Below, in pieces: positions 5,625 to 13,874 of a stretch of 42,735 bases of DNA. The notes beneath the pieces were generated by a model. It made no database searches. It was given only the letters and a program-made list of their open reading frames with translations, and was not told the origin of the DNA. How positions within the stretch are numbered: position 1 is the first letter of the stretch; every line of letters begins with the position of its first letter. This stretch comes from Verrucomicrobia bacterium LW23. Lineage in GTDB: Bacteria; Verrucomicrobiota; Verrucomicrobiia; Methylacidiphilales; UBA1321. Location of the stretch: NCBI GenBank assembly GCA_003054695.1, contig QAZA01000018.1, positions 1 to 42,735 on the forward strand. Direction: 5' to 3'. Made by a program: the position numbers and the translations under genes.

Positions 5625-7538
5625 ATGCCCTCCCGCCCCATCCCCCACGACCTTCGGCCCGTGCGGCTGGCCGTCTGCGCGATGGGCATCCTGGGCTGGC
5701 TGGCCGGCCTTGGTGCACTGAGCGCCTACCGCAGCGTGGCCGCCGGCGATTGCTGGGCACCCGTCGCCCTGGCGGCCGCCGTGGTGATTGCGGATATTGC
5801 CCTGCGCATCGCGTTCCGCGCCGGCGAAATGCCCGCCCCCCCGGAGGCCTGGCCGGCCCCGGCCCACGTCTTTGGCCTTCTCGCCGCTTGGCTTACGCTT
5901 ATAGTTGTAGCTGTGCTATTTGTGCCGGGTATTCGGCGCGATTTCCTTCTGCGCGATCACGGCTGGACGCGCGGCATGGCGCCCCTCTCCGGCGGCCTGG
6001 GCCTTGCCACCCGCGAGCAACTTTACCGCGCCGAAACCGGCCGCGCCCTGTTGATAAGCGAGCCCGCCCTGGAGCGCCGCCTTCGCGCCCTCTCGGCCGA
6101 GCCCGCCGCCTTCCCCCCCGTGCCCTGGCGGGGCGACCTGGCGCTGGTTTATGCCGCGCTGCGAGCCCAGGGGTACAGCGATGACAAAATCCTCAGCCTG
6201 CCCTCAGGCAAGCGCATTGTTGTGGGTGCGTTGTGCGCGGAAGTGGCTCCGCCTTACTGGTTTACACTGGCCCAGGTATGGCTGCACGCCAGCCTGATGG
6301 CCGAGCCCGCGGGAGGCCTCCGCATGGGCTGGCTGCGCCCCGCCCCCACCCGCCGCCTCATCGCGCAATGGCTGGCCAGGCCTGAGCAGATATCCACGCA
6401 AATGCTTGACGGCCTGATATTTGCGTGCGGCTATGCTCCGGAGCTCTTCGGCGAGGAAAACGCCGCCCGGCTGTTTCAACTGCGCATCGCCTCCCTCACC
6501 GCCGGCACCTGGAGCGACCCGGCGGCGGCGTCAGGGACATTACATGTCCCAGGGACACGTAATGTCCCTGATGCGCAGAAAGCGATGGCACCGCCCGATC
6601 CGCGCGAAGCCGCCCTGGAGCGCCGCCGCCAGACGGCCTGGTGGCAGGAAATCGATCGCACGCGCGAAAAGCTTGCCGCCTTTCTGCAGGGCGCAGGCAC
6701 CAGCGCGGGTGACGACGGCATCTCTCTCCTGGCTCAGGCCGACTTCCCCGCGGGCTGGACTCCCACGACTACCGCCGCCGGCCGCGATGCGGTAGCCCGG
6801 TTCATCGCCATGACAGGCCGCCACGTGGAGTGGCTGGAGGAAGCCCAGCACGCAAACGCCTCCGCGCCAGCAACATCCGCCGGCGATACAGAGGGCGCTC
6901 CTGTCGCTGGATTCGCACGCCCCGACCAGGTCCCCGCAATCCCTCCCCCCGGTGCCGCGCAGCAGCCTCCCGATCCCCCGCTCAAGCCTGATATCCGCGT
7001 GCATATGTTCCTGCGCTCCAGCCTGTTAGACAAGGTGCGCTTTGAGTTCGCCGTCCCTCCCCAGGCCCCCGCAACCGCCAGCCCGGGCGCCGTGCCTCTC
7101 ACCGTAGTACGCGAGCCGATGCCCGAGATTGTGGTGGATGAAATTGCCGAACGCGTATCCGTCCGCAACGTGGAACGCGATGTCGTTCGCTATCAACAAC
7201 CTGCGGAAATACGCACCGGCCAGGGCCCCGTCCGACTCCCCGTCCTGTACGTCCGCCTGGAGCGCGATGGCCGCGAGCTGATGCTGACCCTTCCGCTACT
7301 CCCACGCGTCAATCTGGACGAAGCACGCCTGGTGCTGGACATTGTGGATGCGAAAAATCGCGCCCCGTCGTCCCAACCCGGCACCGCCTCCGGCTCCGCC
7401 CTTACATCCACGCAAAGCGCTGTGCTTAATCACTTTGTGACGCGCGTGCTCCTCTCTCCCTGGCGCCTCAACCAGCCCGTCTCCCCCGGGGATGAAGACT
7501 GGCGCATCGCCAAGGATGATGCCGCGACAGCACGGTAA
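5625..7538 (+). CDS. Unrecognised membrane protein with three N-terminal helices
   Basis: I do not recognise this family. From the ATG at 5625 it is 637 residues. Three hydrophobic segments lie at about 14-34, 43-65 and 80-102, followed by a large soluble region. The soluble part has a mostly helical middle (about 120-290), a low-complexity stretch around 300-450 and a C-terminal region rich in beta-type sequence (about 465-575, VRFEFAVPP to LYVRLERDGRELMLTLPLLP). A repeat-encoded insert lies at residues 303-315 (see 6531-6571). The frame is open back to 5304, overlapping the previous gene; an ATG at 5574 is an alternative start. The ABC-F gene begins 42 bases after its stop, so the two may be cotranscribed. 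That it is a real gene is supported by its length, the ordered hydrophobic pattern and its tight spacing to the next gene. Confidence 0.65.
   Translation: MPSRPIPHDLRPVRLAVCAMGILGWLAGLGALSAYRSVAAGDCWAPVALAAAVVIADIALRIAFRAGEMPAPPEAWPAPAHVFGLLAAWLTLIVVAVLFVPGIRRDFLLRDHGWTRGMAPLSGGLGLATREQLYRAETGRALLISEPALERRLRALSAEPAAFPPVPWRGDLALVYAALRAQGYSDDKILSLPSGKRIVVGALCAEVAPPYWFTLAQVWLHASLMAEPAGGLRMGWLRPAPTRRLIAQWLARPEQISTQMLDGLIFACGYAPELFGEENAARLFQLRIASLTAGTWSDPAAASGTLHVPGTRNVPDAQKAMAPPDPREAALERRRQTAWWQEIDRTREKLAAFLQGAGTSAGDDGISLLAQADFPAGWTPTTTAAGRDAVARFIAMTGRHVEWLEEAQHANASAPATSAGDTEGAPVAGFARPDQVPAIPPPGAAQQPPDPPLKPDIRVHMFLRSSLLDKVRFEFAVPPQAPATASPGAVPLTVVREPMPEIVVDEIAERVSVRNVERDVVRYQQPAEIRTGQGPVRLPVLYVRLERDGRELMLTLPLLPRVNLDEARLVLDIVDAKNRAPSSQPGTASGSALTSTQSAVLNHFVTRVLLSPWRLNQPVSPGDEDWRIAKDDAATAR
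6531..6571 (+). repeat. 41-bp palindrome, two GGGACAT-type units, inside a gene
   Basis: Two 17-bp units lie in tandem, GGGACATTACATGTCCC at 6534-6550 and GGGACACGTAATGTCCC at 6552-6568, one base apart. Together with flanking TCA/TGA they make a 41-bp palindrome in which 19 of 20 pairs match (the A at 6544 opposite the C at 6558 is the mismatch). The 18-bp period equals six codons. In the host gene it encodes Ser-Gly-Thr-Leu-His-Val-Pro-Gly-Thr-Arg-Asn-Val-Pro. Related units occur in mutS at 13138-13262. Confidence 0.85.
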
Positions 7539-10850: not shown

Positions 10851-13800
10851 CTACAGCAGCTCTTCCATCACGCCGCCGTCGGTCGAAGCGCCGGCGCCCT
10901 CGCGCAGCAGGCCCTCGTCAGTTTCGCCTGGCTCGTCCTCACGCACAACGGATTTCCCGTTGATAGTCATGCGCTTACGAGGAATTCGCGCCACCTGAAA
11001 AAGGTCAAACTCTTCCTCCAGAAGCTTGCGCGTGCGCGCCTCCGCGCCCTGGCGTTTGCCGCCCGCCGCTTTGGTTCCACGCGTTTTGCCCAGCCGCGGC
11101 TGGCCGTGCTCGTCGAGCTCGCCTTCCTCCAGCTGCCGCAGCAACTGCCGCGCGCGCACCAGAACAGGTTGCGGAAGGCCAGCCAGACGCGCCACTTGAA
11201 TGCCATAGCTTTTGTCCGCACCGCCAGGCAAAATTTTGTGCAGAAAGACGATCTGATCGCCCCACTCGCGTACGGCCACGTTGTAATTCTTCACGCCGGG
11301 GCAGCGCAGCGGAAGCTCCGTAAGTTCATGATAATGAGTGGCAAAGAGCGTTTTGGCGCCAATCTGCGAACATAAGTGCTCGGCCACCGCCCAGGCAATG
11401 CTCAGGCCGTCAAACGTGCTGGTGCCGCGGCCGATTTCATCAAGAATGACGAGACTTTGCTTCGTCGCATGGTGGAGAATATTGGCCGTTTCATTCATCT
11501 CCACCATAAAAGTGCTCTGCCCGCGGCTCAGATCGTCGTTGGCCCCCACGCGAGTGAAAACGCGGTCCAGCAGGCCCACCGTGGCGCGCCGAGCGGGCAC
11601 AAAGCATCCGCAATGAGCGAGGATGGCGATGAGCGCCACCTGACGGATGTAAGTGCTTTTGCCGGCCATATTTGGGCCGGTCAGCACCACCAGATTCTGC
11701 TCGCGATTGTTGAGCAGCGTATCATTCGGCACAAACACGCCGCCGCTGGGCAGCATCTGCTCAATCACCGGGTGGCGGCCGTCTTCAATATTCAGCACTG
11801 AGTCGGTCGTGAGGTCGGGGCGGCGATAATCGCGCTCCTGCGCCAGCGTGCCCCAGCCTGCCAGCACGTCCAGCGCGTTAAGCGCGGCGGCGGTAGCCTG
11901 GATGGCGGCGATGTGGCTGACGGCTTCGGCCCGCAGCGCGATAAACAGCTCGTACTCCAGCTGGCGCGAGCGCTCCTCGGCACCCAGGATTTTGCCTTCC
12001 ATCTCCTTGAGCTCGGGCGTGATATAGCGCTCGGCGTTGGCCATGGTTTGCTTGCGCGTATAGTCCGCGGGCACGGAGGCCAGGTTGGCGGTGCTGATCT
12101 CAATGTAGTAGCCGAAAACCTGGTTGTACCTCACCTTCAACGACTTAATGCCGGTGCGCACCTGCTCGCGCTGCTGAAGCTGGGCGACCCAGTCCTTGCC
12201 TTCCGTGGCGGCGGCGCGCAGTTCGTCCAGGCCGAGGTGGTAGCCCGAGCGGATGATTCCGCCCTCCTTAAGGGGCAGGGGCGGCTCGTCCTCAATAGCG
12301 CGGGCGAGGAGCTCCACTAGCTCCGGCAACGGGCTGACTTGTGCTTTAAGTTGTTGCAGCAGAAAGGGAAGAGGGGCGGCGGCGAGATCTTGTGCGACGC
12401 TGGGCGGTGGTGTTTCGAGGTGCGAGAGCAGTTCCGGAAGCTGCGAAAGGGAGAGGCGCAGGCCGGTGAGGTCTCGCGCGTTTCCGGCGCCCTGGGCCAG
12501 GCGGCCGATGAGGCGTTCCAGATCTCGCACGCCCTTAAGGTGTTCGCGCAGTCTCTCCCGGTTCTCCTCGTGGTTAAGGAACCAGGCCACGGCATCCTGG
12601 CGTGCCCGCAACGGTTCGATTTCGCACAGGGGCTCCAGCAACCAGTTGCGGAGTGTGCGGCCGCCGCCCATGGTGCAGGTGCGATCGACGGCCTCGAGGA
12701 GGGTGCGGGAGCCTTGGGTGGCGCGGATGCTCTCGACGAGTTCCAGGTTGCGACGCGTGGCGGCATCCAACATAAGTCGTCCGGGCGCAATAAGTTGGGT
12801 AATGCGGCGGACGTGGGCCAGATTGCGGCGCAGAGACTGCGTGAGGTAGAGGAACAGGCCGCCTGCGGCACCGATGGCCAGAGGGGCATCGTGCAGGCCG
12901 AAGCCGTCGAGCGACTGAACGCCGAAATGCTCGCACAGGTTGTGCCGGGCGATCTCGCGAGTGAATGCATCATCCTCAAACGCAACGGTTAACGCAGGCA
13001 GGGCTGCCCCTATCGCTGCGAGTGTGCGCAGGGAGTTTTGGGTGGCGTTACTGGGTGCGGCGCCGCCCCTGGGGCCGTTGCGGGAGGAGCGCGGTGTTTT
13101 TGCAGGAGCGGTAGGAGATGGCTCGTCCTCCACGGCGGGGACATTGGATGTCCCTGCTTCAACGGTATCAGGCTGGCCAGGGACATGTGATGTCTCTGCT
13201 GTGCCGGATTTGCGGACGCTGCGAGCAGAGACATTGCGTGTCCCTGAGACACGCAATGTCTCTGGGTCATCCTCCCGAACCCGGCCTACGCCGGAGCCTC
13301 GGAACATTTCCAGATATTCCACGGGCACAACGACTTCTGCCGGATTAAACTGCAGCAGTGCGTCCAGCATTTCTTCTGCCTTGGCAAACTCGCCTGCACG
13401 GAAATCGCCGGTGCTCAGGTCCAGGCACGCCATGCCAAAACGGCCACGGGAGGGGAGGATGGCGCCGAGATAATTGTGCGCCTTGGCGGGCAGCTGGTTA
13501 GTCTCGATGACGCTGCCTGGGGTGATGATCTGCGTGATTTCGCGGCGGACCACGTGGCCGGGGCGGGGCGGTTCCATCTGGTCGCACAGGGCGACGCGTT
13601 TGCCGGCGCGAACGAGGCGGGAAAGGTAGCCCTCCGCTGCGTGGTAGGGGACGCCGCACATCGGTGTGCCGCCGCGCGCGGTTAACGTAAGATCCAGAAT
13701 ACGAGAGGCTTCCACCGCGTCGTCGTAAAACATCTCGTAAAAATCACCCATCCGGAACATCAGGATCGAGCCCGAGGGGGAGCCCGCCTTGATGGTGTGA

Positions 13801-13874
13801 TACTGTTGCATCATCGGCGTAAGGCCCTGCGGTATAGTGGGTTGTGGCGATGGTGATGATGCGGGCTCAGGCAT
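10851..13874 (-). CDS. mutS: DNA mismatch repair protein MutS, with an inserted segment
   Basis: MutS recognises mismatches and recruits MutL. The N-terminal domain carries the Phe-x-Glu mismatch motif (GDFYEMF, Phe45 and Glu47). The lever/clamp region follows, and the C-terminal ATPase has Walker A GPNMAGKSTYIRQ, a GANDDLSRGQSTFM loop, Walker B LVILDEIGRGTSTFDG and the FATHYHELTEL motif. The ATG at 13874 puts TPMMQQY at residues 19-25, matching the usual MutS opening; the frame is open to 14018. At 1007 residues it is longer than the common 850-900. About 80 extra residues (198-278) interrupt the connector domain after EVVVPVEYLEMF and are low complexity, including four repeat-encoded GT/ET-x-x-V-P/S hexapeptides. 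The insert is in a likely surface loop, and all catalytic motifs are intact, so it is probably functional. No mutL is in the window. Confidence 0.95.
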   Translation of the reverse strand: MPEPASSPSPQPTIPQGLTPMMQQYHTIKAGSPSGSILMFRMGDFYEMFYDDAVEASRILDLTLTARGGTPMCGVPYHAAEGYLSRLVRAGKRVALCDQMEPPRPGHVVRREITQIITPGSVIETNQLPAKAHNYLGAILPSRGRFGMACLDLSTGDFRAGEFAKAEEMLDALLQFNPAEVVVPVEYLEMFRGSGVGRVREDDPETLRVSGTRNVSARSVRKSGTAETSHVPGQPDTVEAGTSNVPAVEDEPSPTAPAKTPRSSRNGPRGGAAPSNATQNSLRTLAAIGAALPALTVAFEDDAFTREIARHNLCEHFGVQSLDGFGLHDAPLAIGAAGGLFLYLTQSLRRNLAHVRRITQLIAPGRLMLDAATRRNLELVESIRATQGSRTLLEAVDRTCTMGGGRTLRNWLLEPLCEIEPLRARQDAVAWFLNHEENRERLREHLKGVRDLERLIGRLAQGAGNARDLTGLRLSLSQLPELLSHLETPPPSVAQDLAAAPLPFLLQQLKAQVSPLPELVELLARAIEDEPPLPLKEGGIIRSGYHLGLDELRAAATEGKDWVAQLQQREQVRTGIKSLKVRYNQVFGYYIEISTANLASVPADYTRKQTMANAERYITPELKEMEGKILGAEERSRQLEYELFIALRAEAVSHIAAIQATAAALNALDVLAGWGTLAQERDYRRPDLTTDSVLNIEDGRHPVIEQMLPSGGVFVPNDTLLNNREQNLVVLTGPNMAGKSTYIRQVALIAILAHCGCFVPARRATVGLLDRVFTRVGANDDLSRGQSTFMVEMNETANILHHATKQSLVILDEIGRGTSTFDGLSIAWAVAEHLCSQIGAKTLFATHYHELTELPLRCPGVKNYNVAVREWGDQIVFLHKILPGGADKSYGIQVARLAGLPQPVLVRARQLLRQLEEGELDEHGQPRLGKTRGTKAAGGKRQGAEARTRKLLEEEFDLFQVARIPRKRMTINGKSVVREDEPGETDEGLLREGAGASTDGGVMEELL
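13138..13264. repeat. Cluster of four GRGACAT palindromic units inside mutS
   Basis: Units of the same 17-bp type as at 6534-6568 lie at 13138-13154 (GGGACATTGGATGTCCC), 13180-13196 (GGGACATGTGATGTCTC), 13228-13244 (GAGACATTGCGTGTCCC) and 13246-13262 (GAGACACGCAATGTCTC). The last two are tandem with one base between and form a 39-bp near-perfect palindrome (13226-13264). On the mutS strand they read GTSNVP, ETSHVP, ETLRVS and GTRNVS, the same reading frame of the unit as in the other gene. Confidence 0.85.

Follow-up and report, generated by a model that had tools for sequence, protein, structure and literature searches.

Are the small palindromes that lie dispersed in a bacterial genome selfish hairpins, or are they sites for proteins? 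The question is an old one, and the window (the whole stretch of 42,735 nucleotides that was analysed) offers a clean case for it. An earlier note on this DNA had described, at positions 6531-6571, a 41-bp palindrome with 19 of its 20 pairs matched, built from 17-bp units at a period of 18 bp, which adds the in-frame peptide GTLHVP GTRNVP to an open reading frame and encodes a nearly identical peptide on the opposite strand. All of this is readily found again. The palindrome is present, its units lie where Table 1 places them, the pair adds GTLHVPGTRNVP to the protein of gene 5625-7538 (+), and GT..VP repeats are read on the opposite strand as well. The palindrome, centred on position 6551, is not a single element; it consists of two 17-bp dyads at a distance of 18 bp. 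With one mismatch allowed, the pattern matches six times in the window, versus 0.06 times expected from shuffles. The host protein itself is of little help: no Pfam family matched it and no homologue was found among 59 relatives, hence the gene's own empty site is not demonstrable.

Table 1. Dyad units and their host genes in the window.
Feature	Position	Strand	Remarks
Host gene of the pair	5625..7538	+	637-aa protein, hydrophobic N-terminal part
Near-perfect 41-bp palindrome made by the tandem pair	6531..6571	.	19/20 pairs
Unit 1 of the pair	6534..6550	.	GGGACATTACATGTCCC; encodes GTLHVP, frame 0
Unit 2 of the pair	6552..6568	.	GGGACACGTAATGTCCC; encodes GTRNVP, frame 0
mutS	10851..13814	-	Domains I-V intact; four units in lineage-specific linker
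Extra MutS segment, ~90 residues (approximate)	13017..13301	-	Contains all four units
mutS unit	13138..13154	.	Encodes GTSNVP
mutS unit	13180..13196	.	Encodes ETSHVP
mutS unit, in tandem with 13246..13262	13228..13244	.	Encodes GTRNVS
mutS unit	13246..13262	.	Encodes ETLRVS

The element is not restricted to this gene, as a search of the genome for the pattern made clear. The unit GRGACAY-NNN-RTGTCYC, which flanking bases extend to CAGGGACA-YNNNR-TGTCCCTG, occurs in 153 exact copies in the 6.61-Mb genome; the reversed control does not occur at all. The strict pattern has no match in 59 relatives from the same family and order, and the looser GGGACA-N5-TGTCCC is found 149 times in this genome, whereas none of 387 other genomes of the phylum has more than two copies. 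The dyad sites are a lineage-specific, dispersed and clustered family of short DNA palindromes. Viral contigs yielded eight scattered single matches and no tandem pairs, and a wider scan of contigs gave, among the matches listed, mostly single scattered ones. No sibling family and no other spacer stood out among palindromes with 6-bp arms and gaps of 0-20.

Details were worked out on 817 kb of fetched sequence including the window. Some 50 of the stretches surround listed copies, a few surround transposase genes, and seven of 20 kb each sample the background. When a single mismatch is tolerated, this sequence contains 196 units, a number to be read with the choice of the stretches in mind: they were picked for holding exact units (145 of the 153 positions are covered), and copies that have decayed at other places may be underrepresented in the count. 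In the background, 140 kb altogether, there are no units. The units occur in clusters of a few kb and form tandem pairs, 54 with a period of 18 bp and four with one of 19 bp. Taking the 41-bp palindrome as the unit was tried and abandoned: the partner loops of the 54 tandem pairs make 108 complementary matches versus 105 expected. Since the loops of pairs are not complementary beyond chance, the 41-bp palindrome is a lucky pair; the real unit is the 17-bp dyad (21 bp when extended), and the near-perfect pairing over 41 bp is in part accidental. One array of six units in tandem at 18 bp (L151:15486-15592, i.e., G000:C25:74486-74592) is of a different kind. Three consecutive units are identical throughout and a fourth shares their loop, which makes it, in contrast to most pairs, a genuine tandem duplication.

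The anatomy of the unit is strict in one respect and lax in another. The arms were found exact 195 times and with one mismatch 24 times; two or more mismatches occur at control level. GGGACA and TGTCCC are separated by a spacer of 5 bp in 140 copies and by no other spacer between 0 and 15. Within this spacer almost everything is allowed: 195 units have 110 different 5-bp loops. Lone half-sites occur at chance level. Pairing covariation is absent at positions 1/15 (odds ratio 1.5, p=0.42), 6/10 (100 Watson-Crick pairs versus 109 expected) and 7/9 (35 versus 58), and the half-sites vary independently of each other. In four diverged paralogues (C6, C35, C43 and C13), the flanks are 59-79% identical, the arms are identical in 12 of 12 positions and the loops differ; these paralogues may, however, exchange sequence by gene conversion. 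That non-templated loops arose in a recent burst was also considered. The paralogues weaken this idea, since they have the site in common and their loops differ in one or two bases. Fixed arms and drifting loops, together with the lack of covariation, point to recognition of double-stranded DNA, and the unit looks more like the site of a dimeric protein than like a hairpin.

Where do the units lie? By gene calls from a home-made hexamer model, which makes all counts of units and genes approximate, 107 of the 196 units are genic, 81 are intergenic and 8 lie across gene ends. The original picture of units within genes needs a correction here: many copies are in frame in genes, but nearly half are intergenic. 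Intergenic units are enriched relative to coding DNA and favour convergent regions; divergent regions, which make up 27% of the intergenic DNA, harbour only 5 of the 81. Such scarcity in divergent regions speaks against promoter operators of the ordinary type. Within genes, frames 0, 1 and 2 are used 72, 7 and 28 times (p ~1e-16 versus the expectation from open frames). Frame 0 is the one that reads GTxxVP, and stop codons do not explain the preference. The period of 18 bp keeps the frame, as does the solitary unit, whose 21 bp are likewise a multiple of three. The period had been tied to six codons. It also holds in intergenic arrays, however, and is therefore not a product of selection for a reading frame. 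Target-site duplications were not found at the units, and unit asymmetry does not correlate with local GC skew, by which a link to the replicating strand was rejected.

The 46 host genes mostly encode intact members of known families. They include mutS, an AddA-like helicase-nuclease, a SNF2 helicase, hrpA, a DinG-like helicase, uracil-DNA glycosylase, a pseudouridine synthase, accA, cheA-like and polyketide-synthase-like genes. Units were also seen in a terminase-like gene (L143, G000:C12:101929-103533) and at the beginning of a gene for a tyrosine recombinase (L168, G000:C50:158508-159479). Two matches to an HrpB-like helicase (G000:C9:56877-57788 and G000:C10:91721-92632) lie on two contigs and have identical scores; they may reflect duplication of a region or the co-assembly of two strains.

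Other host genes supply the comparison of orthologues with and without the element: their units sit in segments that orthologues lack. The ~90-residue segment of MutS has no counterpart in E. coli MutS or in the MutS proteins of 21 relatives, and the sulfite reductases of relatives lack the residues found at its unit. Solved structures served as reference for others, showing about six extra residues at each of two units in acetoacetyl-CoA ligase, 23 and 12 at the units of the DinG-like helicase, about 80 in HrpA and about 10 in the pseudouridine synthase; a U32 peptidase host had no structural homologue to align. The extra segments, of 12 to 90 residues, often exceed the unit and so do not tell how much a single event inserted. 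As orthologues of mutS, sulfite reductase, hrpA and acetoacetyl-CoA ligase do without the extra residues, the genic copies are in-frame linker insertions. The two outcomes that would have spoken against the original proposal, an element unique in the genome or residues always present in orthologues, were not seen. Genes of repair and helicase proteins (mutS, hrpA, DinG-like, AddA-like, uracil glycosylase) evidently tolerate such insertions repeatedly, which recalls the REPs of Opitutus terrae (see below).

How can all this be explained? We consider it an even bet that the units are lineage-specific dyad sites, the arms of which are read on double-stranded DNA by a putative dimeric protein, and that the genic copies are tolerated insertions. 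The two arms would be the half-sites. Recognition would hold the arms and their distance of 5 bp constant, with the loop free to drift, and the arms would be maintained by selection. Within genes, we infer the six-residue GTxxVP peptide to be a harmless by-product that flexible linkers would tolerate, while copies in harmful frames or positions would get lost. The reader might be a protein that organises the chromosome, or else a recombinase of the kind proposed for dRS3 of Neisseria; to judge from the placement of the sites, either is more likely than ordinary promoter operators. A wider claim strikes us as rather doubtful: throughout the species, a dimeric protein would read some 150 free-loop dyads, half of them inserted in open reading frames, where selection on the DNA would keep them and make genes the carriers of chromosomal binding sites.

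The most serious competitor, although itself not very probable, is a mobile hairpin of the REP or RPE kind, a single-stranded stem-loop that is moved by an HUH (Y1) transposase and of which some copies landed in frame in genes. Size, clustering, tandem pairs, avoidance of divergent regions and intragenic copies all fit REP families (PMC3733652), and the genome contains five matches to Y1 transposases. Four full-length Y1 proteins, however, are of the IS200/IS605 type, scores with the RAYT model NF047646 do not exceed 29.2 bits versus a cut-off of 80, and the 2.2-3.3 kb fetched around the Y1 transposase genes contain no unit. Nor do the flanks beyond the dyad show a conserved tetranucleotide, be it GTAG or CGTC, and the arms do not covary around a spacer of constant length. 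Less probable still is a target of a recombinase or of phage or IS integration, with the variable core as crossover site. In Neisseria dRS3, too, invariable arms stand at a constant distance around a core that varies (PMC3898611), yet lone half-sites are at chance level, so that no split sites are seen, and among the loci examined there was no prophage or IS with units at its flanks.

The remaining two alternatives concern the genic copies. The sites could have arisen independently by point mutation in existing codons, without any insertion. The diversity of the loops, which differ at almost all sites, would agree with this, but orthologue and structure alignments reveal added residues at the units instead of substitutions, which leaves the proposal with a very small chance. 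We attach even less credence to selection on the peptide, by which GTxxVP would be a protein motif and the symmetry of the DNA its by-product. That 72 of 107 genic units are in the GTxxVP frame is what it would predict; against it stand 81 intergenic units, the use of the other two frames, the unrelatedness of the host proteins and the location in linkers wherever orthologues or structures could be aligned. The reading by a dimeric protein remains the one we prefer.

Dispersed palindromes within coding sequence are a known kind of element, of which the present family appears to be a new, untagged member; its closest analogues are dRS3, the intragenic REPs of O. terrae and the RPEs. The likeness to Rickettsia elements that the earlier note had sensed is real: like RPE-4 and RPE-6 (CGTC REPs) and RPE-1, the units are dispersed and lie in frame in many unrelated protein genes, as insertions that orthologues lack. 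RPE-1 has been described as a longer palindromic insertion. The 8-bp arms and 5-bp spacer also agree with the stems of 8-9 bp and loops of 4-5 bp of CGTC REPs. The sequence, however, is another one, as had been stated too: in contrast to RPE-4 and RPE-6, the unit is symmetric, and its flanks have neither a CGTC (or TGTC/CCTC) tag nor a CCA-like tail.

Within the same phylum, O. terrae has GTAG REPs inside genes, among them DNA repair genes, DNA ligase and RNA helicases (PMC3733652). These, too, are small palindromes that occur as singles and dimers and are inserted in many genes (PMC3733652), but they are tailed, whereas our unit is symmetric with a spacer of constant length and free sequence. 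No GTAG-type tag emerges when bases are counted over 25 positions to either side of the 196 units, and an associated RAYT transposase was seen neither by profile NF047646 nor through units at the Y1 loci. The dRS3 of Neisseria, ATTCCC(N8)GGGAAT, occurs in ~700 copies and is the target of the Nf1 prophage integrase (PMC3898611). It shares with our family the short fixed inverted arms, the variable core of fixed length and the clustering (PMC3898611), an architecture here represented by 195 exact arms, a spacer of always 5 bp and 110 loops; copies amount to hundreds there and to 153 here. The arms differ (GRGACA/TGTCYC around N5 instead of ATTCCC/GGGAAT around N8), and dRS3 belongs to intergenic mosaic elements, while about half of our copies are genic and neither RS/NIME partner repeats nor a link to an integrase came to light. 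HIP1 of cyanobacteria, GCGATCGC, is a highly iterated short palindrome linked to a methyltransferase, a DNA-reading protein (PMC4390886); it differs from the gapped dyad of our one lineage, however, in being an uninterrupted 8-bp sequence that cyanobacteria commonly have. PARCEL repeats are likewise palindromic DNA that encodes tandem peptide repeats, yet they specify a 25-residue amphipathic domain in dedicated ORFs (PMC2996958) instead of a six-residue insert in housekeeping genes.

Two observations in other genomes may be added. One genome of the survey (G306, L275-L281) contains 14 copies of CCCTGT-N5-ACAGGG, mostly near contig ends, with a single loop from which one copy differs by one base; this is probably an IS or a similar ordinary copied repeat. 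In Amycolatopsis coloradensis DSM 44225, GGGACATNNNATGTCCC occurs on four contigs (L037, L071, L084, L085), which is above chance for a 14-base word and perhaps marks the site of a regulator.
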